DNA of 31,815 nucleotides from a virus, in the IMG/VR virus record IMGVR_UViG_3300008117_000187, positions 1 through 31,815 of that record. One strand, given 5' to 3'. Shown one piece after another: positions 1-28,800 of this stretch. Every line of letters begins with the position of its first letter. Position 1 is the first letter of the stretch. Below the pieces are notes generated by a model. It was not told the DNA's origin, made no database searches, and saw only the letters and a program-made list of their open reading frames with translations. Made by a program: the position numbers and the translations under genes.

Positions 1-44
1 CGCAGTAAGGTCCACTGTGTGGGGTTGTGCTAAAGTTTTTTTAT

Positions 45-710
45 ATGGAAAAAATATCTCTAATTAAAAAAGTTTTGGTGAGCTTCGAACAAAGCTCTAC
101 TTCTATAAAATATGATAAGCTATATTTTTGGAATGACGGGCCCAATAAAATTAAACAAATTACTGTTTCATTTGGTATTACCGAATGGGGTAATTTAAAG
201 AAGTTAGTTGAATCGTATGTAAAGAAAAAAGGACCCGTAAAAGGATTGGAAGCTTACCTTCCAAAGATAGGTAAAGAATCTTTAGTAAATGATAAAGTAT
301 TCGTGGATCTGCTTAAAGAATCGTGCAAAGATAATGTAATGGCAATGTGTCAAGAAGAAGCCTTTAATGAAATGTATATAAATCCTGCTTTAGCCTGGTG
401 TAAGAAAGGCGGATTAGTATTACCACTATCACAATTAGTCATTGCAGATTCTTTTTTACATTCTGGTTCTATATTACCTTTTTTGAGAAATAGGTTTGCA
501 GAAACATTGCCATCGGCAGGTGGTGATGAAAAAGCTTGGGTAACAGCTTATACAAAAACCCGAAGAGACTGGTTAAAAAACCATACAGATAAAATTTTAA
601 ATAATACAGTATATAGGGCCAATTTATTTTTATCTTTAATAGATAAGAACGATTGGAATCTTGATTCAGATAAAATCAATGCTAACGGGGTGATTATTGT
701 TAATGGATAG
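45..710 (+). CDS. GH46 chitosanase-like endolysin
   Basis: Probable phage endolysin that cuts a glycan backbone at lysis. The 221-aa protein matches the glycoside hydrolase family 46 (chitosanase) pattern over its length. It has a Phe-Glu-Gln-Ser-Ser-Thr segment (Glu15, the expected catalytic acid) and a following Asn-Asp-Gly (Asp31, a candidate second carboxylate). It also has LEAYLPKIG, an MYINPALAWCKKGGL helix pair, a GGDEKAWVTAY motif and a C-terminal NTVYRANLFLSLI segment before NDW. All were recognised by eye. I chose ATG at 45; an in-frame GTG at 27 would add six residues (LKFFY-like) with no family support. No signal peptide is visible, so it needs the holin encoded 17 nt downstream. 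The family's usual substrate is chitosan. For a phage the target is more likely peptidoglycan, because GH46 shares the lysozyme fold, but this is inference. Confidence in the family is good; the substrate is uncertain. Confidence 0.75.
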   Translation: MEKISLIKKVLVSFEQSSTSIKYDKLYFWNDGPNKIKQITVSFGITEWGNLKKLVESYVKKKGPVKGLEAYLPKIGKESLVNDKVFVDLLKESCKDNVMAMCQEEAFNEMYINPALAWCKKGGLVLPLSQLVIADSFLHSGSILPFLRNRFAETLPSAGGDEKAWVTAYTKTRRDWLKNHTDKILNNTVYRANLFLSLIDKNDWNLDSDKINANGVIIVNG

Positions 711-727
711 GTTAAATTATTAATGTT

Positions 728-898
728 ATGAATCCATTAGTAACAAGTGTCATTCGACACGCATTAACGGCTAGCGGCGGTGCCTTGGTAGTTCAAGGTA
801 CTTCTCAAGGTTCTGATACAGAAACAGTAGCTGGTGCTATTGTAACCATCTTAGGATTTGTTTGGTCGTTACTCAAAAATAAGAAGTCTCAAGATTAA
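728..898 (+). CDS. Small holin, Pam3-gp28-like
   Basis: A 56-aa protein starting MNPLVTSVIRHALTASGG, with a hydrophobic segment AGAIVTILGFVWSLL and a charged tail KNKKSQD. This layout (short N-terminal amphipathic HALTA-GG helix, small loop, one C-terminal membrane helix ending W-S-L-L then lysines) matches the Pam3-gp28 family of putative phage holins. It lies 17 nt after the endolysin gene on the same strand and is followed by a strong terminator, which makes a compact lysis cassette. A holin's role is to permeabilise the inner membrane so that the endolysin reaches the wall. The family assignment is from memory of the sequence pattern and the function is inferred from family and context. 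Confidence 0.72.
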   Translation: MNPLVTSVIRHALTASGGALVVQGTSQGSDTETVAGAIVTILGFVWSLLKNKKSQD

Positions 899-931
899 TA
901 AATTAAATAATAAAAAATACATATTAAGTGT

Positions 932-959
932 AATACCACCCTCGAGGTGGTATTTTTTT
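932..959 (+). terminator. Rho-independent terminator after lysis cassette
   Basis: Perfect 9-bp inverted repeat AATACCACC (932-940) and GGTGGTATT (946-954), with a 5-nt loop CTCGA. It runs into a T-tract through 959. It ends the endolysin-holin unit just before the promoter-like box of the next gene. Confidence 0.88.
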
Positions 960-973: not shown

Positions 974-1453
974 ATGGCTTTAATTGATGAGCTATACGAG
1001 TCTAGTGAATGTGAGAAAATAAAGTTACTGTATTCTGCTGATCCATCTTCTAGAGATGCTATTATGCATGCTATAGGTTATAAAATAGTCGATTCCGAGC
1101 GCATATTGCTATCAAATCCTTTAGATATACTTTCCCTCATATGTTGTACCGCATCATTCGCAAATACAAAGGAAGAATGTCAAACAGTAGCTATTATAAT
1201 TCATAAAGGATTAACCTATGATAATCCATTACCCTACTTAATGGATGATTTCGGATTTAAATTAGCAGAAAAAACTTTGACAGCGTTATCTTTTTTTAGA
1301 TTAGCAATGGAAAGAAGAACAAAATATCATGGCGCGCCTTCTCCGGATTTTTATCGTTCAGCTTCTATCCTTCTGTTTAAAAAGAATAACCATCTAGATA
1401 TAGCAGAACACCACTTAAAATGGGAAAATTTCTTGAACGAAATGTTTTTATAG
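974..1453 (+). CDS. Uncharacterised phage protein (159 aa)
   Basis: I do not recognise this protein. It starts MALIDELYESSECEKIKLL and is mixed alpha-helical. It has a cysteine pair in LICCTASF, a possible amphipathic helix KTLTALSFFRLAMERR, and a lysine/histidine-rich C-terminus. An in-frame GTG at 947 lies inside the terminator hairpin, so ATG 974, 5 nt after a TAAATA box, is the better start. It sits alone behind its own promoter-like box and terminates convergently with the minus-strand gene, overlapping it by 6 nt. There is no signal peptide or membrane segment. The reading frame and promoter support a real gene; function is unknown. Confidence 0.7.
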   Translation: MALIDELYESSECEKIKLLYSADPSSRDAIMHAIGYKIVDSERILLSNPLDILSLICCTASFANTKEECQTVAIIIHKGLTYDNPLPYLMDDFGFKLAEKTLTALSFFRLAMERRTKYHGAPSPDFYRSASILLFKKNNHLDIAEHHLKWENFLNEMFL

Positions 1454-8382: not shown

Positions 8383-9093
8383 TTATTTATTTTTTGTTAG
8401 AGCTTTCCACGACACTGGAAATTTGCTTGATACTAGTTGGTTGATTTGTTCTGCTACTAATCTCGTTTCTGCTTGAGTATCTTTCTTAAGTCGCAATCCA
8501 CAAACCCTAGCAAACGCATATAGAGAACCCGTCCAATACCACTCCGTGTACATATTTTGTGGCAGAACCATTCTAGCTTGTTCTGCACAAACTCCTTGCT
8601 CCAACATAGCTGTATATAGATTGAGACAAATTGATGCAACGCTTTTAACTGTACAATTTTCAGCAAAGGTTAAATCTACAAATTCATCTTCCATTGAACC
8701 TTGTTTCTTGTCTGGATTTTTCTTACGCCATTTTTCAGGAAAATAAAATTCTGGTTCATTGTCTACGTACCGTCTGGAAATTTCATTCCAAACTAAACCT
8801 ACTTGATGTTTACCTAACTGTCTTGCAACAAATATGGGAGCTTTAATTCTGAACTGTAATTGAGGATGAGCAAAAGGTGACCAGTGATTGTGTTCTGCTA
8901 AGAAGTTAATTAACTTCTCATCTCCTTTTTTAAGGACTTCAATAGGACGCTGAGCGATAGTTCTTGAATCTGGAAATATTTCATCTTCATAACCCACTAC
9001 ATCCCATGTAGATTCTTTATCAAAAGATACTCGAGCTGCGTTTACAACCGTAAGGTCTGTTCCTAATGAGTCAATTAAAGTAACCTTCATCAT
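8383..9093 (-). CDS. thyX: Flavin-dependent thymidylate synthase ThyX
   Basis: A 236-aa FAD enzyme that methylates dUMP to dTMP using methylene-tetrahydrofolate and NAD(P)H. It supplies thymidine for phage DNA synthesis. Family landmarks: NAARVSF near the N-terminus, HNHWSPFAHPQLQFRIKAP (68-86), and the signature region RQLGKHQVGLVWNEISRRYV (91-110). Also seen are AEQARMVLPQNMYTEWYWTG and a C-terminal CGLRLKKDTQAETR. The canonical RHR of the RHR-x(7-8)-S motif is Lys-His-Gln (95-97) here, with Ser106 at x8 spacing. Adjacent ATGs at 9093 and 9090 are both possible, and AGG precedes the first. It is 1 nt from the upstream gene and 4 nt from the PSCyt gene. Confidence 0.93.
   Translation of the reverse strand: MMKVTLIDSLGTDLTVVNAARVSFDKESTWDVVGYEDEIFPDSRTIAQRPIEVLKKGDEKLINFLAEHNHWSPFAHPQLQFRIKAPIFVARQLGKHQVGLVWNEISRRYVDNEPEFYFPEKWRKKNPDKKQGSMEDEFVDLTFAENCTVKSVASICLNLYTAMLEQGVCAEQARMVLPQNMYTEWYWTGSLYAFARVCGLRLKKDTQAETRLVAEQINQLVSSKFPVSWKALTKNK
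8384..8389 (-). promoter_or_regulatory. Late-promoter-like TAAATA box
   Basis: Reads AATAAATA on the minus strand, TAAATA 5 nt before the ATG of the PSCyt gene. It overlaps the last codons and stop of thyX. Confidence 0.6.
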
Positions 9094-9559: not shown

Positions 9560-10924
9560 TTATGCAATGATTTCCTTGATGATCTCTCCGTAATTATCGG
9601 TCAAACGGAAGTCCCTACCATTATATCGATATGTCAATTGCGTATGGTCGAATCCAAGCAACCTTAAGACCGTTGCATGGAAATCATGTACTGTAACAGG
9701 ATCTTCTGCTACATTCTTACCAATCTCATCCGACTTACCATAACGAATACCTCCTTTTACGCCGCCGCCTGCCATCCACATAGAAAATGCTTTGCTATGA
9801 TGATCTCTACCAGAACGTTCATTTACACGACCAGGGGTAGTTACTGTTCTACCAAATTCTCCGCCCCAAATAATGAGAGTAGAATCTAAGAGACCTCTTT
9901 GTTTCAAATCTTTAATAAGAGCAGCTGCTGGTGTATCTATAGCACCACCCACTCTGGTTACATTTGTTTTTACATCAGTATGATGATCCCATCCTCCAGC
10001 TTCAATTTGAACGAAGCGTACACCCCTTTCAACCAATCTACGTGCAACTAATAGTTTAGCTCCTAATTCTGTATTTCCATACATTTCTCTGGTTGAATCA
10101 GATTCTTTTTTAATATCAAAAGCATCTGTTGCTGCTGCTTGCATTCTAAATGCTAATTCAAATGATTCAATGCGTGCTTCAAGTTGTTCGTCTTTTTGAA
10201 CTCTTTGTTCATGCATTAAATTCAATTTCTTCGAAAGATCAATTTGATTCTTTTGTGAATCATTTGTTGTGAATTCAGAAAAGAGATTTGGTAATACTTT
10301 ATTCGGCGCAGCATTACGATTGAAGTTTGCTACTGAACCTTGGAATAAAGAAGGTAGGAAAGAAGATTGTCGCCATTCAGCGGCGCCGCCTAAAGTGATA
10401 AATCCGGGTAAGCTTTGATTCTCTGTCCCCAATCCATAAAGGGTCCAAGAACCCAAAGAAGGCTTAGGAAGAACTAATGATCCCGTATGAATCAATTTAG
10501 CAGCAGGACCATGTGCAGGTACATCTGTTGTTACAGAATTGATAAGGCACATTTCATCTGCAACTGTTTGCAGCTGAGGAAATGCATCAGAAATATGAAT
10601 TCCTGACTTACCTGATGGTGTAAAGTTAAATGGAGTATAAAAAATCTCTCTTTGGCCACCATCTGAAGAAGTGCCATCAAACTTTTTCATTTCTGGCTTA
10701 TAATCAAAAGTATCCAGGTGAGAAGGTGCACCGCCAGCAAAAATATGAATAACAGCTTTAGCCTTACCCTGTAAAGGAGCTTTACGTGGCTTAAGGGGGC
10801 TTTCTGCTGCCTGAAGATCTTGGAGGATTGTAGCCAATGCTACACCACCAACACCAAAACTGGTTTTTGTTAGGAACTCTCTTCTTGAAGAGACATCAAA
10901 TCGTGTATTGCAAAGGTAATCCAT
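9560..10924 (-). CDS. DUF1501 protein #1, Tat-exported (sulfatase-like fold)
   Basis: A 454-aa protein of the DUF1501 family, related to the alkaline-phosphatase/sulfatase fold and typical of Planctomycetes and Verrucomicrobia. A Tat signal is evident: SRREFLTKTSFGVGG (13-27), followed by a hydrophobic stretch ending in AA-E. Family motifs are intact: IHIFAGGAPSHLDTFDYKP (59-77), AGGWDHH (309-315), GGEFGRT (354-360), GRDHH (372-376) and HDFHATVLRLLG. The Asp and His residues are the expected metal/active-site set. The C-terminus YRYNGRDFRLTD...EIIKEIIA is the normal family end, so the gene is complete. Host genomes usually pair it with a PSCyt1/DUF1549/DUF1553 gene; that partner is at 5400-8378. 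It is preceded by the best T4-late-like box (TATAAATA), 7 nt from the ATG. Catalytic activity is unproven for the family. Confidence 0.92.
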   Translation of the reverse strand: MDYLCNTRFDVSSRREFLTKTSFGVGGVALATILQDLQAAESPLKPRKAPLQGKAKAVIHIFAGGAPSHLDTFDYKPEMKKFDGTSSDGGQREIFYTPFNFTPSGKSGIHISDAFPQLQTVADEMCLINSVTTDVPAHGPAAKLIHTGSLVLPKPSLGSWTLYGLGTENQSLPGFITLGGAAEWRQSSFLPSLFQGSVANFNRNAAPNKVLPNLFSEFTTNDSQKNQIDLSKKLNLMHEQRVQKDEQLEARIESFELAFRMQAAATDAFDIKKESDSTREMYGNTELGAKLLVARRLVERGVRFVQIEAGGWDHHTDVKTNVTRVGGAIDTPAAALIKDLKQRGLLDSTLIIWGGEFGRTVTTPGRVNERSGRDHHSKAFSMWMAGGGVKGGIRYGKSDEIGKNVAEDPVTVHDFHATVLRLLGFDHTQLTYRYNGRDFRLTDNYGEIIKEIIA

Positions 10925-11793: not shown

Positions 11794-12681
11794 TCAAAAA
11801 ATATAATGTTTTTGTCTAATATCTAAAATAGCTAGATTTTTTTGTTTGGCTTCAATTTCCAAATCCATATCAGAGTATCTAGGTAATTCTTTAATGTAGT
11901 CTGAATGTGATCTATCTAATGAATGATCTCTACCTTCACTATAGTGGAATAAAGGTTTTACTCCATATCTAGCCCATGAACTAACACACGCTTCATGAGC
12001 TTTCCATTCCGGCTCTCCTTCATTATTAATTAATCTATGATGATAGTCTAAAGTAACAGGGGTATTGGGAAATGCTCTATGAATCTTTTGCCATGTCCAA
12101 TAACTTTTATCTTCATTTTCAAATACTAGTCTAGTTCGAACTTTTATCGATAATTTATCTATATTTAAAAGCGCTGCATTGATAGCTTCCTGAGATCTTT
12201 TTCCATTAGACAGATGAATGTTGATGGGATATTGAAAGTTCTCCGGAATTCCTAAATTTGACATGATAGCTCCGTGCATTTCAAGATTAATTAATGAAGA
12301 AGAAGATATTTTTTTATCCGGATTAGTAATAATACAAAATTGTGAAGGATGCATTGACAATCTACCACCCAAAGAAATATATTCATTAATTTTATTTCTT
12401 GACATTAACCAATATACTTTATTATCGATATAATCATTAAAGAAATCAGAATAAGGTTCTAGATCAGCTAAAGGAAATAAAGAAGATGAAATTCTATAAT
12501 GCCAAATATTATTATTAATACAATAATCTACTACTTTGCATAATTCATTTAAATTATGATCATAGATATTTTTTAATTTATTGTATATTTTATCATTATT
12601 CTTTTTAGCCCATGTAACTGTGGTAGACTTAAATTCACTAGCTTCGTTACCCAATAATAAACAACATAATCCTAATCTCAT
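11794..12681 (-). CDS. uvsE: UV damage endonuclease UvdE/UvsE
   Basis: A 295-aa TIM-barrel endonuclease that nicks DNA 5' of UV photoproducts (cyclobutane dimers and 6-4 products) to start alternative excision repair. Family motifs in order: MRLGLCCLLLG at the start, WHYRISSSLFPL (60-71), GGRLSMHPSQFCII (104-117), INIHLSNGKRSQ, RLVFENEDKSYW, VTLDYHH, FHYSEGRDHS and DMDLEIEAKQKNLAIL at the end. These include the expected metal-binding His, Glu and Asp residues. Length is normal. The start overlaps the lipoprotein stop as ATGA (12678-12681), so it is the last gene of the DUF1501 #2 operon. A second UV-repair gene lies at 19262. Confidence 0.92.
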   Translation of the reverse strand: MRLGLCCLLLGNEASEFKSTTVTWAKKNNDKIYNKLKNIYDHNLNELCKVVDYCINNNIWHYRISSSLFPLADLEPYSDFFNDYIDNKVYWLMSRNKINEYISLGGRLSMHPSQFCIITNPDKKISSSSLINLEMHGAIMSNLGIPENFQYPINIHLSNGKRSQEAINAALLNIDKLSIKVRTRLVFENEDKSYWTWQKIHRAFPNTPVTLDYHHRLINNEGEPEWKAHEACVSSWARYGVKPLFHYSEGRDHSLDRSHSDYIKELPRYSDMDLEIEAKQKNLAILDIRQKHYIF

Positions 12682-14633: not shown

Positions 14634-15899
14634 TTAAGCTAATAAGTCTTGTTCGACAGTTCCATTATAAACAATAGATACAGGTCTATTTCCATCCGAC
14701 ATCAAATGTTTAGTTGGGTCGATACCAATTTGATTATAGATAGTAGCGGCCATATTTTCAACGGTCAACGGTTTTTCTTCTGGTTCGGCGCCTGTAGCAT
14801 TAGATGCTCCATGAATATAACCTTCCTTAAATCCACCACCAGCGAAGGCTACTGAGAATACTCTTGGCCAATGGTCTCTGCCGGCATCTTTATTAATCTT
14901 GGGTGTTCTACCGAATTCAGAAGATACCATTACGATTGTATCATTAAGCATTCCCCTTTGTTCTAGATCTTTAATTAACGCAGCATATGCTTGATCGAAT
15001 GCTGGTAATTGATTTTTAATATTAGCACCGATAGCAGCATGATGATCCCAACCACCATAAACAACAGAAACGAATCTTACTCCAGCTTCTACTAATCTTC
15101 TTGCCATTAAGAATCTTTGACCTGCTTGTGTTTGACCATAAGCATTACGAATATGTTCTGGTTCTTTAGAAAGTTCAAATGCTTCTCTGGCTTGTTGGGA
15201 AGAAACAAGATCATACGCTTGTTGATAAAACTTGTTCATGGATGCAATAGCATCAGCACCTTCGATGGAACGGAAATGATTATCTACTGTTTCTAGAATG
15301 CTACGACGACGATTGAATCTAGCTTCATCTACACCTGCATTCATTTTTAAATCTCTAACAGCAAAATCTTTTGATGCAGGATCTGACCCCAATGAGAAAG
15401 GACCAAAGGCTTTTGAAAGGTATCCGGTTCCGGCGTCTTCAGAATTCATATTTGGAACACAGACATAAGGAGGCAGGTAATTTCTACTTCCGAATTCATG
15501 CGCTACAACAGAACCAAATGAAGGGTACTTAATAGCTGGTGAAGGGCGATATCCCGTAAACATGTTATGGGTACCTCTCTCATGGGCTGCTTCACCGTGT
15601 GTCATAGAACGAACAACTGTGATCTTATTGGCAATCTTAGCTGTTTCTTTCATATACTCAGAGAAGTGTACACCAGGAATACTTGTTTGAACAGATCCTA
15701 ATGGACCTCTGAATTCAATAGGTGCATGGATTTTTGGATCCCATGTTTCTTGTGCAGCAGCACCGCCAGGCAAGTAAATGTGAATAATTGACTGAGCTTT
15801 AGCAGAAATCTTAGACTCAGATTGAGCTCTAAGAACATCACCGGTTGTTAGGCCCAACCCTCCGAAGAGGCCAGCATAGAGGAAATCTCTTCTATTCAT
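14634..15899 (-). CDS. DUF1501 protein #2, Tat-exported (sulfatase-like fold)
   Basis: A 421-aa DUF1501 protein of a different subgroup from #1. It starts at ATG 15899 with a Tat motif NRRDFLYAGLFGG (2-14). An upstream TTG frame start at 15914 falls inside the promoter box and is rejected. Motifs: IHIYLPGGAAAQETWDPK (39-56), THGEAAHERGTHNMFTGYRP (100-119), YGGWDHH (281-287), SSEFGRTP (327-333) and GRDHWPRVF (340-348). The usual Asp in GGPSQxDTFD is Glu-Thr-Trp-Asp here, common in this subgroup. It leads an apparent five-gene operon: coiled-coil protein, two lipoproteins, UvdE. Two other exported proteins in the same unit suggest a job at the host envelope. A TAAATA box is 5 nt before the ATG. 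Confidence 0.91.
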   Translation of the reverse strand: MNRRDFLYAGLFGGLGLTTGDVLRAQSESKISAKAQSIIHIYLPGGAAAQETWDPKIHAPIEFRGPLGSVQTSIPGVHFSEYMKETAKIANKITVVRSMTHGEAAHERGTHNMFTGYRPSPAIKYPSFGSVVAHEFGSRNYLPPYVCVPNMNSEDAGTGYLSKAFGPFSLGSDPASKDFAVRDLKMNAGVDEARFNRRRSILETVDNHFRSIEGADAIASMNKFYQQAYDLVSSQQAREAFELSKEPEHIRNAYGQTQAGQRFLMARRLVEAGVRFVSVVYGGWDHHAAIGANIKNQLPAFDQAYAALIKDLEQRGMLNDTIVMVSSEFGRTPKINKDAGRDHWPRVFSVAFAGGGFKEGYIHGASNATGAEPEEKPLTVENMAATIYNQIGIDPTKHLMSDGNRPVSIVYNGTVEQDLLA

Positions 15900-15904
15900 A
15901 TTAT

Positions 15905-15910
15905 TATTTA
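15905..15910 (-). promoter_or_regulatory. Late-promoter-like TAAATA box (DUF1501 #2)
   Basis: Reads GATAAATA on the minus strand, TAAATA 5 nt before ATG 15899. It forms a divergent pair with the plus-strand box at 15936. Confidence 0.6.
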
Positions 15911-15935
15911 TCAATTATTTGGAAACTATTTCACC

Positions 15936-15946: not shown

Positions 15947-16129
15947 ATGGCTTTTGTATGGCAAATTAAAAGGCGTTTAGCAGGAGATCCTGGACCACCT
16001 ACTGTTTTAGATCCGGGTGAATTAGCTTTTAATGAAGTAGATAACACTCTTTATATAGGAACAGAAATTCAAGATCTTTCTGGTACTAGTACAGAAACAT
16101 TATCTACTTCAGCTATTCCAGTTCTCTAA
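15947..16129 (+). CDS. Mini tail-fibre N-terminal module (60 aa)
   Basis: A 60-aa protein: MAFVWQIKRRLAGDPGPP, then LDPGELAFNEVDNTLYIGTE and a short Ser/Thr tail. The IKxKR...GELAFNExxxxLYxG pattern is the short module found at the N-terminus of many phage tail-fibre and tropism proteins (similar to Mtd N-terminal domains). Here nothing follows it, so it is a stand-alone module. A longer version is at 22103-22630. The ATG is chosen because a TAAATA box lies 5 nt upstream; the longer open frame upstream has no support. It converges with the VWA gene, overlapping stops by 4 nt. Likely virion-associated, by inference. Confidence 0.7.
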   Translation: MAFVWQIKRRLAGDPGPPTVLDPGELAFNEVDNTLYIGTEIQDLSGTSTETLSTSAIPVL

Positions 16130-17358
16130 TCCATCCGGATGGTTAATCCGAATGGAGCTGTGTCTTTATTGTTGCCTCTAACCACAAAAATGGTATCACA
16201 ATAGGTTGGATCACCAAATCCATTACCTGGATACAAATCTGTGAAATTAATATAAAGCTTTGCGTCAATAGAATTATCTTTCATATATTCATATGATGCA
16301 TTGAAATCAGTACCGCCACCGCCCTTTACCCCATAAGTAGAAATATCTCTACCTTCATCAGCTCGGAAGACTTCGGGATTATATACAACCGTATCATAAC
16401 TCCATACATGAATTTGATAATCACTATACTGTGACATAATACCATAAATCTCACTCAAGAATGCTTTTAAATCATCTTCATTAATAGACCCAGAAGCATC
16501 AATACCCACACAAATGTCTAGAGTTTCATCTCTCTTCATACCAGGTAATTTAAATGGTGTAGACATACCTTTCTTGGAAGGCGAAAGGAATGAATAATCA
16601 GAACGAATAGTACTTTGAATTTGATTACGAAGAATCTCTCTCCAATTCATTTTAGGTGAAGATAGCCCTTCAATAATACGACCCATTCCTTTTGGAATGT
16701 TACCAGCACAATTCTGGGCAGCAGCCATCAGCTGTGATTTGATTTCATCACGAAGCTTCTGCTTTTCTTCTTCTGACATACCTTCCATATTAGGACGCTT
16801 ACCTTTACCCTTACCATCTTTCTCATCATCATCCTTACCACCAGAAAGATGTTCATCTAGAAGCTTATCTACCATCTCATCTAACGTCATTCCTGCAAAT
16901 GTATTATTCTTATCCAATTCTTCTTTGATCTTATCATAGATTTGCTCAGCAGATAGATCTCTGAATTGTTGGTCTAAGAGAGTACCGGGAATTTGCTTTC
17001 CAATATTATTATCAGAAAGAATTAGATTAATAGCAAAGTCTGCAGCAACATTCCAAAGCTTAGGTTCTCTATTTCCTCTACGAATATGATGCTCAAAACA
17101 ATTATGAAGCACTTCATGTGCATAAAGAAACACCGTCTCTTGTGTAGAGAGTGCATGAATGAATGCTGGATTATAAAAGAAATTACGACCATCTGTTGCA
17201 GCTGTATCACACCAATCTTCTGCACGAGTACGTTTGAGGTGTGGTACCATTTGACCAAAGAAAGGATGCTTAATTAGCAACGAAACAGCAGCCTTGACCA
17301 ATTTTTCCTCAACAGCTGGAATATTAATATTTTCAATCTTTTCGAGCTTCTTTTTCAT
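16126..17358 (-). CDS. VWA-like protein with metallopeptidase-type N-domain (DUF2201-like)
   Basis: A 410-aa two-domain protein. The N-terminal part carries HEVLHNCFEHH (81-91), an HExxH zinc-peptidase-like motif as in the DUF2201 putative metallopeptidase domain. A charged Gly/Lys/Asp linker follows (about 172-200: GGKDDDEKDGKGKGKRP). The C-terminal VWA-like domain has DASGS (287-291, MIDAS) and GGGGTDF (346-352). Such proteins are encoded beside MoxR AAA+ ATPases in bacteria and many large phages, and the pair is thought to act as a chaperone-like remodelling system. The partner MoxR gene is directly upstream, but a strong terminator lies between them. A related box ATAAAATA lies 6 nt before the ATG. 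The substrate is unknown. Confidence 0.86.
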   Translation of the reverse strand: MKKKLEKIENINIPAVEEKLVKAAVSLLIKHPFFGQMVPHLKRTRAEDWCDTAATDGRNFFYNPAFIHALSTQETVFLYAHEVLHNCFEHHIRRGNREPKLWNVAADFAINLILSDNNIGKQIPGTLLDQQFRDLSAEQIYDKIKEELDKNNTFAGMTLDEMVDKLLDEHLSGGKDDDEKDGKGKGKRPNMEGMSEEEKQKLRDEIKSQLMAAAQNCAGNIPKGMGRIIEGLSSPKMNWREILRNQIQSTIRSDYSFLSPSKKGMSTPFKLPGMKRDETLDICVGIDASGSINEDDLKAFLSEIYGIMSQYSDYQIHVWSYDTVVYNPEVFRADEGRDISTYGVKGGGGTDFNASYEYMKDNSIDAKLYINFTDLYPGNGFGDPTYCDTIFVVRGNNKDTAPFGLTIRMD

Positions 17359-17387
17359 ATGAATTATTTTATGGGGTTTCTAAAAGA

Positions 17388-17430
17388 AATGAGAGCTATC
17401 CATACACCCGTACAGATAGCTCTCATTTTT
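17388..17430. terminator. Strong bidirectional terminator between MoxR and VWA genes
   Basis: Perfect 13-bp inverted repeat AATGAGAGCTATC (17388-17400) and GATAGCTCTCATT (17415-17427), with a 14-nt loop. T-runs follow on the plus strand, and a T-rich stretch follows on the minus strand. It should stop minus-strand transcripts leaving the MoxR gene before the VWA gene. Confidence 0.88.
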
Positions 17431-17440
17431 AGGCTACTTA

Positions 17441-18532
17441 TCAATCATTACTATCAAAAACATACTTACCGTACTTATTAAAGAAATCATCAAACGAGGT
17501 TAGCTTCTTTGGATCAATATCCAATTCATAATTAGTCAAAGCTACCTTAGCACCCATGATAACCAATTCTGTAGGAAAATTATCCATCATGAAACGGAAG
17601 TAGCGATCAGCATAATCATGCCATTTCTTCGTCTTAGCATTTGCCAATTCTTTCAATTCATAACAGAGAGAAACCGTTAGAGAATACATTGCAGATACCT
17701 CACGACTTTCTTTGTTCTTAAGCTCTGTTACTTTACCTTCAAGAATATCAATTGCCTTAGGTAACTTACCGCAAAGCTTACGATGTGCTACGAACTTCAA
17801 AGCCAATCCATCCCCAATAGCTCCCGATACGAGATCTGTCAAAGAATTAACATCTTCATCTTCATCCCAGAGAAGATCAGATACGAAATTCCAGGTACGC
17901 GGACATGCAAAAGAACGAGATGGAGACTGCGGATCAAAATTGAAAAGATCTTGCTTTGCAAATGAAATATAACCAATAACGTCAGGGTGAACATTATGAT
18001 TCACCGCCCAATCTACCCAGTCATCATTAGACACTGTCATTTCGAGATGAATAAACCGTGAAGCCAATGGAGCTGGCATCTTATAGGTAACGCCGCGATC
18101 ACCTTCACGATTACCAGCAGCTACAATGTCTACACCATCTGGCAAACGATACTTACCTACACGGCGATTCAAGATCAACTGATAAGCTGCAGCTTGAACA
18201 GCAGGAGGTGCTGAAACAATTTCATCCAAGAAGACGATTGCTTTACTATTTGGATCATGCGGCAATTCACTTGGAGGTGCCCAATTCATAGTGCCGTCTT
18301 TTTCATTAAGATAAGGCATTCCCTTAATATCCGTAGGATCCCAGAGAGCCAAACGAATGTCGATCACTTCGCGGCCTTGTTCTGCACCGATTTGTGCAAC
18401 GACGTCACTCTTACCGATTCCAGGAGGACCCCAGAGCATGATTGGGCGACGCTTAGACATAGCACGCTTAATTGCTTTGGTTGCTGATTTCGGACTGATG
18501 GTTCTGATTGTGGTATTTGATGTAGTAGCCAT
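17441..18532 (-). CDS. MoxR-family AAA+ ATPase
   Basis: A 363-aa ATPase. Walker A WGPPGIGKS (34-42), Walker B IVFLDE (99-104), sensor-1 AAGN (138-141), and an arginine-finger-type LASRF are all present, with the usual MoxR order (WDPTDIKGMPY after Walker A; helical lid with CPRTW). MoxR ATPases remodel or activate partners through VWA-domain proteins; the likely partner is the next gene, 16126-17358. The region looks richer in G+C than the fibre genes, judged by eye. There is no TAAATA box before its ATG (18532), so it is probably transcribed with the 229-aa gene 41 nt upstream. Confidence 0.92.
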   Translation of the reverse strand: MATTSNTTIRTISPKSATKAIKRAMSKRRPIMLWGPPGIGKSDVVAQIGAEQGREVIDIRLALWDPTDIKGMPYLNEKDGTMNWAPPSELPHDPNSKAIVFLDEIVSAPPAVQAAAYQLILNRRVGKYRLPDGVDIVAAGNREGDRGVTYKMPAPLASRFIHLEMTVSNDDWVDWAVNHNVHPDVIGYISFAKQDLFNFDPQSPSRSFACPRTWNFVSDLLWDEDEDVNSLTDLVSGAIGDGLALKFVAHRKLCGKLPKAIDILEGKVTELKNKESREVSAMYSLTVSLCYELKELANAKTKKWHDYADRYFRFMMDNFPTELVIMGAKVALTNYELDIDPKKLTSFDDFFNKYGKYVFDSND

Positions 18533-18573: not shown

Positions 18574-19263
18574 TTATCTGATGTGTGAATATTTTTTAAG
18601 TTCTTTTACGATTTCTTCTTTTCCATTCCAATGGAAACTTTTAACAAAACGACGAATCAATTTAAGATTAGTAATAATAATGCTCCTAGTTACAAAACGA
18701 GAGATCATCTCTAGATTGGTTTTAATGTCAATGGCGGTTTCATTATTGAATTCAGGTGCTGGTAGAGGTAATTGTGTAGTAGTAGTGCCCAACCCTTTAT
18801 CAAAATAAAAATTTAAAATATCCTTTCGTTTTGTATATCGTTTATATGTGTTTCCAGTTTTTACATATAAGCCTTTATACTCTGTATTATGCCTGAAAAG
18901 ATGGCAACCCCAATAACCCATTTTTTTATTAATATTATAATAAGAAGAACGCCAGCTTAGAGTAACATTCCAATCTGGTCCAAACACATCACTCTTTATT
19001 GGAGTACTGCAATGAAACCCATCATTCAAAATAGAAAAATACTCAGCATTTTTTGATTTTATCAAATCAAAAATAATATTGAAGTTATGTTTTTCATCTT
19101 GATCAATTTCTTTATTCAAAGTAAATGTTACTAATTTAAGTTCTTCCCAATGAGCTTTATCATATTTTGCGCGCCGGCTAAGTTCATTGAGCTTATCAAT
19201 TTTATCAACTCTAAACATGTTTTTAATATATTGGGTTTCGAAACCCTTGAACTTATTAATCAT
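18574..19263 (-). CDS. Uncharacterised phage protein (229 aa)
   Basis: Not recognised. It is a basic, Lys/Asn-rich soluble protein: MINKFKGFETQYIKNMFRVD, a central WNVTLSWRSSYYNINKKMGY segment, GCHLFRHNTEYKGLYVK, and a helical C-terminus (LKLIRRFVKSFHWNGKEE). The ATG (19261-19263) overlaps the start codon of the divergent glycosylase gene by 2 nt, so its upstream signals must lie inside that gene. An AAGGGAG tract sits about 13 nt before the start. A later Met (residue 16) is an alternative start. Confidence 0.62.
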   Translation of the reverse strand: MINKFKGFETQYIKNMFRVDKIDKLNELSRRAKYDKAHWEELKLVTFTLNKEIDQDEKHNFNIIFDLIKSKNAEYFSILNDGFHCSTPIKSDVFGPDWNVTLSWRSSYYNINKKMGYWGCHLFRHNTEYKGLYVKTGNTYKRYTKRKDILNFYFDKGLGTTTTQLPLPAPEFNNETAIDIKTNLEMISRFVTRSIIITNLKLIRRFVKSFHWNGKEEIVKELKKYSHIR

Positions 19264-19717
19264 GCAAACATTTCTCCCTTATCCTGATTATGAAAAATCT
19301 TTAAGAGTCTTGGATTATAGAAGACTCGGAAAACAAAGAGCTGAGGTTTTAGGTATTTTGAGATCATTCCAAATGAAGCCTGATCAAGATAAGACATTGG
19401 GGTTTAGAGATCCATGTAAATGGATGTGGTGGGGACACTTTAATCAGTTAGTAGAATATGGAATTGTTTCTTGCCAGGAATGGAAACGTAGAGGTTATAA
19501 AGATAACACGGAAGACCAAATTGCTTTTTATAAGGATTTCTTCTCTTCTAATAATGAATTGCCTTTTTGGTTTGGAGACGAAAAGATTCATTACACCCAT
19601 CAATGTGTTCTAAAGAAAAAGGATCCAGTATTTTATGGAGATGTTTTTCCAAACGCTGATCCAGAAGTTGGTTATATCTGGCCAGATTGCAGGCATATGA
19701 TAAAATGGAGTAAATAA
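19262..19717 (+). CDS. Pyrimidine dimer DNA glycosylase (MSMEG_6728/DenV-like)
   Basis: A 151-aa protein of the pyrimidine-dimer glycosylase/endonuclease V-type family. Such enzymes cut the glycosyl bond at UV dimers and nick the strand. Recognisable segments: MQTFLPYPDYEKSLRVLDYR, then RLGKQRAEVLGILRSF (family RLGKQR motif), CKWMWWGHFNQLVEYG, EWKRRGYKDN, PFWFGDEKIHYTHQCVLKKK (P-x-W-x-G-D-x-x-x-H-x-x-H), DPVFYGDVFP and YIWP. ATG 19262 was chosen because the family begins MQTFLPYPD; an upstream in-frame start at 19187 would add 25 residues overlapping the divergent gene. With UvdE at 11794 this gives the phage two independent UV-lesion enzymes. Confidence 0.82.
   Translation: MQTFLPYPDYEKSLRVLDYRRLGKQRAEVLGILRSFQMKPDQDKTLGFRDPCKWMWWGHFNQLVEYGIVSCQEWKRRGYKDNTEDQIAFYKDFFSSNNELPFWFGDEKIHYTHQCVLKKKDPVFYGDVFPNADPEVGYIWPDCRHMIKWSK
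19711..19716 (+). promoter_or_regulatory. Late-promoter-like TAAATA box
   Basis: TAAATA made of the stop codon TAA of the glycosylase gene plus ATA, 5 nt before ATG 19722. Confidence 0.5.
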
Positions 19718-22833: not shown

Positions 22834-25800
22834 TTAGTTGTTAATTAATTTCCAATCATCTACGTAGATAGACCCGATGGTGCCATCACAATCTACATAA
22901 AATTCCATTATGCCATTTCCCTGCACAACTGGAGTTGTTGCGGTTACCGCAGTGTAAGTTGTTGTCTTGGGTATTGTATATAAAATATGATCTTGTGGAA
23001 TTCCTATCGATGAATTTTTCTTAATAATCAATCTCGGATTATTTCCATTATAATCATTTGATACAGCTACATTTAATTTCACTGTTACATCATTTCCATC
23101 ATTAATAGATACAAATTTACTACCAGATTTAAATTTATCAGTCGCAGAATATGGCGTTAATTTCTCAGCAACATTTCCTGCTGATAAAGTTGTATCAGTG
23201 CTTCGTTTTCCTAATCTTGTATATGATTCATGATTACCAACTACACCATTTTTATTCATGAATACTACACCCGCTGTTTTAATATTTCTAACAGGTAAAC
23301 ATGATAGATTTTGTACACCCGCACTTGTAATGGATGTATTTGTAAATTGATAAGACCCTAACACATAACCGCTCAAAGAAATGGAATATCCTGTAGTTAC
23401 ATTAGAAATAGTTGAATTATCGAAATTAAAATTTGAAAATTCTGTATCTCTAATATATAAGGGTATGCCAGTATAATTATTTGTTAATAAAGTACTTTTA
23501 TCTAAAAATACTTTATTGAAATTTACTGGATTGTAACTCTTAGATGAATGTATAATTATATTTGGATTATTATTACCCATCAATGATGTTAATCCATTTA
23601 TCTTAGTGAACCCCGAACCCAATTTAAATTGAGCATTGTTATTAGTACTATTTGCAATATAAACTCCGGATAAAATAGTTGTCATATTATTAATAATAAA
23701 TCCTATTGTTTTATTACCTTCAATATACAAATCTTTTGCAGTTACAGACATTGATTCTCTGTAATCATTATTTGTACTGCTAATAGAAATACCGAAGGTA
23801 GTGTTATTAACACTGCTTATATTAGAGATAGTAGTATTTTCAATATTGGTATTTGATCCATCTACAAACATGCCGCCCGCAGTATTGTAATAATTTTCTA
23901 TATTGTTTATATTAGTAGTACCTGTTTTTATTGTTCGTTTATATAATAAAACAGTATCACTATCAACTGTGAATGGAGTAATGGGTATTGTAATATTATT
24001 TTGCGAAGCATATACAGCCGATCTTAATACACGGAACCCATATACTGATTTTGATATTGAATCTAATGTCGAAGATCCAATAGCAATCCCTGCCACGGTA
24101 CCATCAAATTCAAAGTTAGACGAATATGTGCCTAATCTTTCACCGTTAAAATATAATGAAATAACACCGTCTTCTCTGCACACTGCAATATGATGCCATA
24201 TACTAAGAGGTGCATATGGTACAGTAACAGTAATTTTAGCGGTATTCGTACTTTCATTAGTATAGAATTTCAATACTCTAGTATTGACCACATAAGTTAA
24301 TTTTATTGAGCCAATACCTTCAACTCCGGGATTAGTAACAAACAATCTAGATTCTTGTGTACTTGCTGCATTGAACTTAAAGAATCCTTCTATTGTAAAA
24401 TCATCTTCAAATAAATAGCTAGAATTTTTATTCCACGAAATAGATTTTGTATACGATCCTGTGCATGTTTCTTCGGGGAAAGAATCGGCAAATGGCGTAT
24501 CGAATGAAACCGTATTATTTGTTGCTTCATCATTTACAACAGTATCATTATTTGTTAAGTCTATATTTTCGCCTTTGCTAGGCGTAGCAAAATATAAACC
24601 GTGTGAAGTGTTCAGCCAATTTTTTATGCCGTTTACATATCCATCTACGTTATCTATGAATGTACCTCTACTACCATTTGCTATAGCAATGTTATTAGAC
24701 ATTACAACATCAGCATTTAATGAAATATTTTCAAAACGCAATCCATTTAACCCCGAACGCAATAGCAAGTTATTGGAAATATTAGAATTATATAATGATT
24801 TATTAATACAAAGTGCATCACCAGAATGATTATAGAAGGTATTATTTAATAAATTTAAATTATAGCATTTATCGAATAAATTATTTCCATTCACATTAGT
24901 GCTGCCTGTTCCATCTATATAGCACCCAGATAATAAAGCATATCCATCTTGATTAACATTGAATATTAATGATTCTGTAGTTACACCATCCATACCGAGA
25001 TTTTCAAATTCAGTATCACAAATATAGCTATTTGATGATTTATCGAATTGTATCCAACCACGGCGTGAAGAATTTAATCCTTTAATTGATATATTTCTTG
25101 ATGCATTTACTACTGTAGGTATACCATCATAATTTTGGTGAATATAAACTGATGCAGATGTTGTAGATAATCTATTATTAACTGTTGATCTTGCTGTTAA
25201 TTCATCGAATTGTGCAGCAGCTGCAGATGTTGGTAACAATAATAAACTATCACCAGATAACCAATTAACAGGAGTTTCATTAAATGTGAATACAGTAGAG
25301 CTAGCTGCGTGTGATCCAGTTAGAGTAACATATCCTGTCTTTTGAAGACCTGCTACCTGTAAGCTACCACCATGCATAACATGTATTTTTGATTCGACAA
25401 GATTTACTGTTTTTTTGTAACCAAAACCGGCAGACAATACAAATTTACCACCCGCACCAATCTTCAATCCATTATTTGTAATGTTGATATTTGAATTGGT
25501 ATTTGAAGGCGATGTAAGTACTCCGCCATTTTGTATAGATATATTATTTAAAAGAGTATCACTTAAGCTGTTATTAACAGTCAATTGTGTTTTTTCATTC
25601 CCATTCAAATATCCTGTTATAACAGTCTTTTCAATAGGACCTGGTTTATAATATAAAGTATCTTTTGCATTATTATAGAGAAATACCGTATCTGCTGTTG
25701 CTGATAATGTGGATGGTACTACTACTGTAGTAGTATTGAAATTTCCGTCATATAATGCGCGACCATCTATAATTCTTGTATTATATATATCTCCATAAAA

Positions 25801-28800
25801 AACAGCTTGCGCACCAAAGGCATCATCAACTCCTAAAGCACCAATAAGCATTGCGGTAGTTGATAATGGATTCATTTGCACATCAATATTAGCGGTAGAT
25901 GCAGTTGTGCGCGTACCATTTACATACATTGATAAATTATTATTTTTCTTACATACAGCTACGTGTGACCACGCACTTAATGATCCCGCCGCAGACAAAT
26001 TTATACCATTAGGTAATAATGAATTGCGCAATTTATAAGCACCATCGCTATAACATAAAGACAAATCATTAATTGATAGTATTGTTCTTTCAGTAAGACC
26101 AAATATTACCGTATTTTCTTTTGCGGAAGTAAGTGGATATACATATGTTTCTATGGTCCAATCTCCTTTGCTTTGGAAGTTTGTTAAAGGTGCCCTCAGG
26201 AAACGATTACCGGGTATAAACAATGAAGCGGTAGTGCCGGGAGCACTGCGTGATGGCAGTCGCGAAGAAGTCAAAGCATAAAAATTGGTTAAATTACCAG
26301 TTTTTGAATATTCAGTTATGCTAGATAATTTCTCTGCTGCAGATGTTATAATATGGCTATTTACTGGTGCGATAATATTGTTCAGCTTCAAAAACAATGA
26401 TACGTTGCCCATATTATTAACACCCGTGCCACCATCTTGTGTTAATGTAGCCGCTGCACTAGGCAATGCATAATTGCTAGTATGAACACATTCTCCGTTA
26501 ATAATTCTGATTGATGTTAATTTGCCATCATATCTACCTTTATTTCTAGAAGCATCACCATATATGCCTACGAAGGCACCATTTACAATACCATCATTGT
26601 AATTTACACTGTTAATAGCCGATGCATCAAATACCCCATCTCTATAAACAGAAAGTGTTGATCCTTTTCTTCCTATACCTACATGATGCCATATACCATC
26701 AGCATAATCAAAATTTGTTGAAAGAATATTAGTATTAGAAAATAATTGCAATTTTCTATCATTTCCTGTAGCATTAATGCATACATGTAATGCGCTCACA
26801 GAACTGACACTGCCTAGTGTAATGATTCTTCTGCTTAATGTATCATGACCAAATTTGCTACTTTTCATCCAAAAATCAATCCAAAAATCATTTGAAAAAT
26901 CTAAACTTAGGCTAGCAGGTAGCTGTAAGTAATTGTTATTTTTTCTGCCATTAAATATCAAAGTATTTTCTTTATAATTTGTTGATGCATTTACGGTATC
27001 ATCTAAAGATACTGCAAATGAATTTCCTTCTAATAAAATATTATTATTAGCAGATGCATCATATATTCCAGCTTTAATGCCATTAATTAATAAATTTGGA
27101 CTCACTGTTAACAATGTAGCACCGAACCCAGTTGCACCATTATCTGTCAACGTTAGTGCTGAACTGGATGGTATAAAAAATTCATTATACAAACATTCAC
27201 CTTTAGTTATTCTCACATCGGACATATATCCTTTGCAGTTATTCTCACCTAATTTAATACTATTATTATCATTAAACAAATTCAAACCCACATAAGACAA
27301 TGTTCTGGCTGTTTTTCCATTAATAAATAATCTATAATTATTTGATGATCTTGTAAGTGCAATATGATTCCATTGATTTGTGAATGATCCCGTTCCGTTT
27401 AATGTTACGTCAGCAATATTATTATTGCCCAATTCAGCTCTTATTTCATTAGAATTAATAAAACTAAATTTTATACCGTCGGCTAAAGTATCTGTACCCT
27501 GCCATGTCAATAATGGCGTGTCACCAGTTGGATCACCTACTGCATAATACCAAAATTCAACGGTAAAATCACTACTTCCGAATGTATATTCGTCATTTTT
27601 TTCACTAACAGTAATTAAATCCCCTGTGCCATCAAAATATATACTTCCACCGTGAGAATATTTATTATATATTTCTTCGGGCGAAAATGGACTAAACTCT
27701 GCTGAAGGTGCTTGTGTAATAGATGCACCATTTAATAAATTAGGATATGATATGTCTGTAGCTGGGTTAGTAGATTTATCATCAGCTTCTAGAAGCAAAA
27801 CATTCTCGATCAATGGATATTCGGTTGGTGTATTTCCATAAAGTGCACCACCGTTGCCATTGACTGTTAATGTGGATGTTGGCGGGGTAAAATCATTGAC
27901 ATAAAGTGCTTGATTTTTTGTAATACGCAAATCAGATATATAACCATCGAATACATTTATGGGCGTTGAAAAATCAGCACCAATTCGCATCGTGCCGCCT
28001 GTATATGTTTGATAAAATGATGTTTGTTTTAATATACCATCAACGTACAAATATACATTGAACATATTCATAACTACTGCAATATGATGCCAATTATTAT
28101 CCAATTGTGTATCAGATATTATTAAATCACCGAACACGGGTATACCATTTTGCAAATTCAAATTAAAATAGCTATTAGCTATATTAAATATAGGTTGTTT
28201 AGCTAAATTTTTATTATTTGTTTTAACCCAGCATTCAATAGTAAATCCCAACCACGTCTGCGGATTAAAATCATTAGTATTTTCAAATTCAATGTAATCT
28301 GCATATACATTTTTATGGTTTATATAATTAGGTGAAAATGCATATGAATATTTTTTGGTATCTATCAATGATCGCTGTGTTGCAACAGATGATTTATTAG
28401 ATATGGGCCCGGGAAAGGTTGAATATATTGTCCTATTATACGAACTTTCATCCTTAAACTGGCTATGAGTCGAATCGAGACTAGATGCATCAACATTACC
28501 ATCAATACAAAATACTGCATCTTTCAAATAATAATCTCTAGCAGTGATAGAAAAATTAGATGTATAAACAGCTTTATTTAATAATGTCACATTATCAATG
28601 TGACCATAAAAATGCCCGTTGCCGTCATTTCCTATATAAATTGGTTGACTGTCCGAAAAAATAGGACTAGCTAAATTTACAGAAGATAATAATACTCCAT
28701 TGACATAAGCTTTTAATGTATTATCAACTGAGACAAACGCCATGTCATATATATGTGTTGATCTACCCCCCCAAAGCCCCATATCATCATTTCTTATCAT

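Follow-up and report, generated by a model that had tools for sequence, protein, structure and literature searches.

The first two genes of the window, by which we mean the whole 31,815-base virus record analysed here (a fragment by class), are in our judgement probably a canonical holin-endolysin pair, in which the endolysin would be a holin-dependent peptidoglycan glycosidase with the fold of glycoside hydrolase family 46 (GH46). The positions of these genes and of the other features discussed below are collected in Table 1.

Table 1. Features of the window, with positions counted from its first base.
Feature	Position	Strand	Remark
GH46-fold endolysin gene (predicted)	45..710	+	ATG 45, stop 710, 221 aa; PF01374 1.2e-14
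Codon of Glu15, proposed general acid	87..89	+	aligned with E19 site of 7c6c/7c6d
Codon of Asp31, proposed general base	135..137	+	aligned with Asp40 of N174
Hairpin following the base (Pro33-Thr40), lengthened	141..166	+	gap of 3-4 residues required in HMMER alignments
Holin (predicted), 56 aa	728..898	+	PF23987 5e-15
Intrinsic terminator closing the two-gene unit	932..954	+	9-bp stem, 5-nt loop, T run
ORF159, conserved 159-aa gene past the terminator	974..1453	+	viral homologues; no Pfam/PHROG match
PSCyt1/DUF1549/DUF1553 protein, 992 aa	5400-8378	-	
DUF1501 proteins (two)	9560-10924, 14634-15914	-	
ThyX, UV endonuclease UvdE, DUF2201 metallopeptidase/VWA + MoxR-like ATPase, pyrimidine dimer glycosylase	8383-9093, 11794-12681, 16126-18532, 19187-19717		
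2675-aa repetitive protein	22834-30861	-	LamG-like repeats by eye

A sequence-only reading of this DNA had described a GH46 gene paired with a Pam3-gp28-like holin gene and closed by a perfect terminator, and its coordinates and labels proved right, as PF01374, PF23987, the terminator and a gene order conserved in two other viral contigs (L002 and L003) bear out. The 221-aa protein scores 54.9 bits against PF01374, above the curated cut-off of 27, with residues 11-207 aligned to positions 3-207 of the 210 in the profile, and no signal peptide or transmembrane segment is apparent in it. The holin gene starts 17 bases further downstream; its 56-aa product has a single hydrophobic segment near the C-terminus and scores 55.7 bits (cut-off 27) against PF23987 (Phage_holin_10, 'Bacteriophage holin Pam3 gp28 family'), covering profile positions 1-51 of 52, and it also matches phrog_37382 at 3.5e-10, a PHROG of unknown function. 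Within positions 1-1700 there are three terminator-like sites against 0.7 expected, and the site behind the holin gene is the only one on the + strand, with a fold of -11.7 kcal/mol (z -2.65; 2 of 200 shuffles were equally good). The two genes would be expressed as a unit. The order GH46-holin-terminator-ORF159 is common to the window, L002 and L003, so that in three contigs a holin gene lies directly 3' of the GH46 gene under a shared terminator; identities to the window are 94% and 85% for the GH46 protein and 96% and 95% for the holin in L002 and L003, respectively, and the terminator stem is the same in both, with a different loop. When the holin was used as a query, L002 and L003 were the sole other viral contigs found, and the phage records gave no convincing match (best E 2).

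ORF159 is probably a neighbour typical of the lineage and not part of the lysis unit. It has homologues in five other viral loci (97, 96, 62, 56 and 56% identity), one of which, in L064, adjoins GH46 on the opposite side, and its structure model is poor (pLDDT 57.7). On the other flank, about 40 bases 5' of the GH46 start (window 4-44) are near-identical in the three contigs despite indels there in L003; this stretch contains a short inverted repeat (CCAC..GTGG) and is perhaps a late promoter or operator.

An AlphaFold model of the 221-aa protein, built from 25 viral sequences, has a mean pLDDT of 94.1 and a pTM of 0.88, and its predicted architecture is the two-domain alpha-helical fold of GH46. 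In a Foldseek search against the PDB the top 13 chains, each with E<=0.001, were all chitosanases, the best being 6lwu (1.2e-10; TM 0.83 by query length). VIA-align placed GH46 structures at Z 21-23 (22.8 for 6lwu and 21.1 for the N174 chitosanase 1chk), followed by the GH80 structure 5b4s (Z 12.6), the effector-immunity complex 4nso (Z 11.8), the P1 endolysin Lyz (Z 7.5) and T4 lysozymes (about 6-7). The carboxylate pair proposed earlier, Glu15 and Asp31, is present: Glu15 aligns with the residue replaced in the E19A mutant 7c6d (glutamate to alanine), while the partner of Asp31 is Asp40 of N174 in 1chk (residue numbering from an excerpt of PMC3848431), and neither varies in any of the 25 rows of our alignment A4. 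In the model, Glu15 is part of helix 3-16, and Asp31 falls in the stretch that separates strand 26-29 from strand 38-41; by alignment these two residues are the putative catalytic pair.

The protein belongs to a phage-rich branch of GH46 that degenerate-pattern scans found at no fewer than 58 viral loci, forming 41 clusters at 85% identity; this count and a former one of 27 are lower bounds, each scan having used two short degenerate patterns. In the GH46 tree the window protein groups with L091-L093 (100/99), apart from a rhizobial clade. Such endolysins had been called uncommon among characterised phages, which agrees with the 10 GH46 (PF01374) entries filed as phage lytic proteins in PhaLP (excerpt of PMC8310338) and with tblastn searches of four branch members against 50,697 phage records, which gave no significant match (one query at E<=10, where two matches at E 4 and 9 are put down to chance, and three at 1e-3, with none). 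The rarity does not extend to metagenomic viruses, however, given the 58 loci. A comparison of the GH46 alignment A1 with genome contigs yielded 63 pattern stretches and no relative among them.

The putative acid glutamate and base aspartate are kept in 57 of the 57 viral loci that reach those columns, the 58th row (L117) being cut short, and Gln38, Thr40, Asp135, Ser140, Gly141, Trp165, Arg173 and Arg191 are invariant in all 58. At the place of chitosanase Arg42 the window protein has Pro33, and the 58 viral rows read P 34, N 17, K 4, D 1, S 1 and gap 1, with no arginine as aligned, in an alignment that is uncertain at this column and next to a branch hairpin 3-4 residues longer. The GH46/80 chitosanase signature, used here as a pattern that includes Arg42, is matched by none of the 63 sequences; three of four typed fragments of solved chitosanases match the same pattern, and the fourth is an E-to-A catalytic mutant. 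At position 37, 50 of the 58 viral loci have K or R, a residue that might stand in for Arg42 in space. In N174, Arg42 is described as conserved in all characterised chitosanases and as belonging to the PROSITE signature; activity fell drastically with every one of the 19 replacements (excerpts of PMC3848431). The branch, as aligned, is without a residue that chitosanases need and, judged from these positions, probably cuts the bacterial cell wall instead of chitosan. The clade that includes the window protein has probably given up chitosan as a substrate, so that the earlier label 'chitosanase-like' stands for the fold and probably not for the substrate.

A related reading, that the protein is an endolysin for a host-specific amino-sugar polymer (e.g., a de-N-acetylated or otherwise unusual wall glycan) and not for ordinary peptidoglycan, appears unlikely to us. 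It would suit the chitosan-type fold and the conservation of several acidic and basic positions in the cleft, among them R148 in 40 of the 58 viral loci and R173 and R191 throughout, but the Asp57-type position, which we take to be an amino-sugar contact of chitosanases, is Asn in 53 of the 58, which argues against keeping that contact.

The DUF1501 and PSCyt1/DUF1549/DUF1553 genes of the window make a host in the PVC phyla likely, plausibly a planctomycete or verrucomicrobium; they are hallmark genes of Planctomycetota and Verrucomicrobiota, here inside a phage. The contigs of L002 and L003 hold two and three DUF1501 genes, respectively, and one PSD1 gene each, and DUF1501 is also found in two more of 22 GH46 contigs tested. 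Within a pattern-limited sample, the 992-aa protein has its best cellular matches mostly in Verrucomicrobiales. In a DUF1549/DUF1553 tree of pattern-picked sequences (38 of the 42 genome loci; the other four, which were shorter, were left out), the phage copies stand beside a Verrucomicrobiota clade (96/92), with long branches flagged as unsafe. Neither the 992-aa protein nor the first DUF1501 protein has a match in the 50,697 phage records, and a search of the open-licence literature on DUF1501 with planctomycete phage or viral auxiliary metabolism found no paper; possibly these genes are more surprising than the lysis cassette. The repair genes (the four intervals between 8383 and 19717 in Table 1) suit a sunlit habitat, and the 2675-aa repetitive protein is probably a tail fibre or adhesin.

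GH46 is classed as a chitosanase family, and the protein could accordingly be a true chitosanase serving as an auxiliary metabolic or capsule-degrading enzyme apart from lysis, a reading that we hold to be distinctly improbable. Viral precedents are on its side, namely GH46 in chloroviruses and a functional GH75 in a soil phage (excerpt of PMC9485262), as is the absence of a recognised lysis neighbour for many relatives. Against it stand the missing signature and Arg42-type arginine, the holin gene next to GH46 in the three cassette contigs, and a survey of 582 sampled genomes from the likely host phyla, in which none of the 288 Verrucomicrobiota and none of the 294 Planctomycetota had PF01374, so that acquisition of the gene from such a host for work on chitosan is unlikely. 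PF01374 was likewise absent from nine further genomes reached through the loci, two of which also belong to the phylum samples; Bacillus subtilis was the positive control.

The nearest cellular relatives found, at 38-41% identity, lie on plasmids. The window protein matches seven plasmid records at 38-40% identity, six of them spanning 80% of its length, and we viewed five such loci (L057-L061, on rhizobial and Microvirga plasmids), two of which come from the same strain. An L,D-transpeptidase gene adjoins the GH46 relative in four of the five, from three distinct plasmids, and the Microvirga locus has a hypothetical protein gene in its place; this neighbourhood counts in favour of the peptidoglycan reading. 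Mostly, the GH46 gene stands beside L,D-transpeptidase, caspase-family and DUF3616 genes, and in L060 a Rap1a/Tai immunity gene follows at a distance of a few kb; the region may be an antibacterial or wall-remodelling island. No Pfam peptidoglycan-binding domain was found in the rhizobial relatives, though one record's product name calls the protein peptidoglycan-binding. By eye, the C-terminal part of two of them recalls an HxxGxxxD/HxH peptidase; Pfam was unhelpful and the PDB gave just a 24-residue match (E 1.3) to a muramoyl-pentapeptide carboxypeptidase, and with matches so poor this likeness was not used as evidence.

Gene neighbourhoods across the branch give mixed evidence, and a lysis role is therefore well supported for the window's clade and just suggested for the branch as a whole. 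The PF23987 holin occurs in two of 27 GH46 records, both from the window's own clade, and in none of 22 other GH46 records at E<=10 (15 of these are also among the 27). Of the 117 neighbour ORFs listed, 66 were scanned with PHROG and Pfam, and few lysis families turned up among them. An Rz-like spanin (3.4e-4) adjoins GH46 at L086, and weak holin matches lie near it at L083 and L085 (0.002 and 0.008); a neighbour at L144 that is similar to the L086 spanin was not recognised as one. The 414-aa GH46 protein encoded by positions 4974-6218 of L080 has hydrophobic segments at its C-terminus and may be a fusion of endolysin and holin. One lineage has its GH46 gene beside an IMP dehydrogenase/GMP reductase gene. 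Small membrane-protein neighbours on the same strand and within two genes were not significantly enriched (p 0.16): 15 of the 40 cluster representatives had one, and so did 35 of the 127 control positions, which were crude ones from mechanical ORFs; the match counted at L093 is the ORF159 homologue and probably not a membrane protein. Because this test was not significant, we do not claim that the whole branch sits in lysis cassettes.

L132 already has an amidase endolysin of its own, an Amidase_3 gene (3.1e-51) two ORFs downstream of the GH46 gene, and GH46 may be a second lysin at that locus. For the window, it seems very improbable that the GH46 protein is a second or accessory lysin, or a wall enzyme carried by the virion or its tail, and that another part of the genome encodes the main endolysin: the three cassette records are all fragments (31.8, 46.2 and 20.2 kb), L132 shows such a pairing and some GH46 relatives adjoin tail or fibre-like genes, but in the window clade GH46 has a holin as its partner and a terminator ends the pair, and no second wall hydrolase is among the window proteins scanned.

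As the endolysin of a canonical holin-endolysin pair, the role that we infer for it, the GH46 protein would accumulate in the cytoplasm, having no export signal, until the 56-aa holin permeabilises the inner membrane late in infection. Once at the wall, the enzyme would hydrolyse peptidoglycan in its glycan strands, presumably by the inverting mechanism known from the lysozyme superfamily, with Glu15 as acid, Asp31 as base and a water molecule probably positioned by Thr40. More broadly, we consider it an even question whether a large branch of GH46 in which phages dominate, found in dozens of uncultivated viruses and in none of the phage records searched, moved from chitosan to peptidoglycan by losing the base-serving arginine and lengthening the hairpin around the invariant Gln-x-Thr, and so forms a new class of glycan-cutting endolysin, with one lineage directed against Planctomycetota/Verrucomicrobiota.

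With GH46 treated as a chitosanase family, annotation pipelines label such phage genes chitosanases or carbon-cycling auxiliary genes, and csn is listed as an auxiliary carbon-cycling gene for Lake Baikal viruses (excerpt of PMC8066274). If the branch cuts peptidoglycan, these annotations are wrong for such phage genes, and wall studies would gain a new lysin class, the walls of the PVC phyla included.

Among known systems, the GH46 chitosanases (6lwu, 7c6c, 1chk) share with the window protein the same fold over 210-215 residues, the Glu/Asp dyad and the PF01374 match. At 19-24% identity to them, the window protein differs in being without the DGR arginine, in its hairpin longer by 3-4 residues, in having Asn for Asp57, and in that no signature match and no secretion signal were seen. 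The predicted protein A0A6J7XBS0 ('Glycoside hydrolase, family 46', uncultured Caudovirales phage) has 221 aa, 41% identity and a TM of 0.95. The PhaLP entries are, like the window's, phage PF01374 proteins, and the window holin resembles the Pam3 gp28 family in its profile match. The structure 4nso, which we take to be the complex of the VgrG3 C-terminal domain, has a like fold with an rmsd of 4.0 over 186 residues at its Z of 11.8 and 9% identity to the window protein; VgrG3 is a secreted antibacterial effector, unlike a phage endolysin. VgrG3 is reported to act on the glycan of peptidoglycan, which sets a precedent for such activity in a domain of chitosanase type (excerpts of PMC12663445 and PMC6099711). 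T4 lysozyme and P1 Lyz, both GH24 endolysins, have the lysozyme superfamily core and the holin-endolysin logic in common with the window, at Z values (about 6-7.5) of a level that can be mere arrangement. The open-licence literature on 'hydrolase family 46' and phage held no title on an endolysin. Since GH46 is filed as lytic in PhaLP and named in an uncultured phage, the kind of enzyme is already known; the new part is a distinct branch with a lost arginine.
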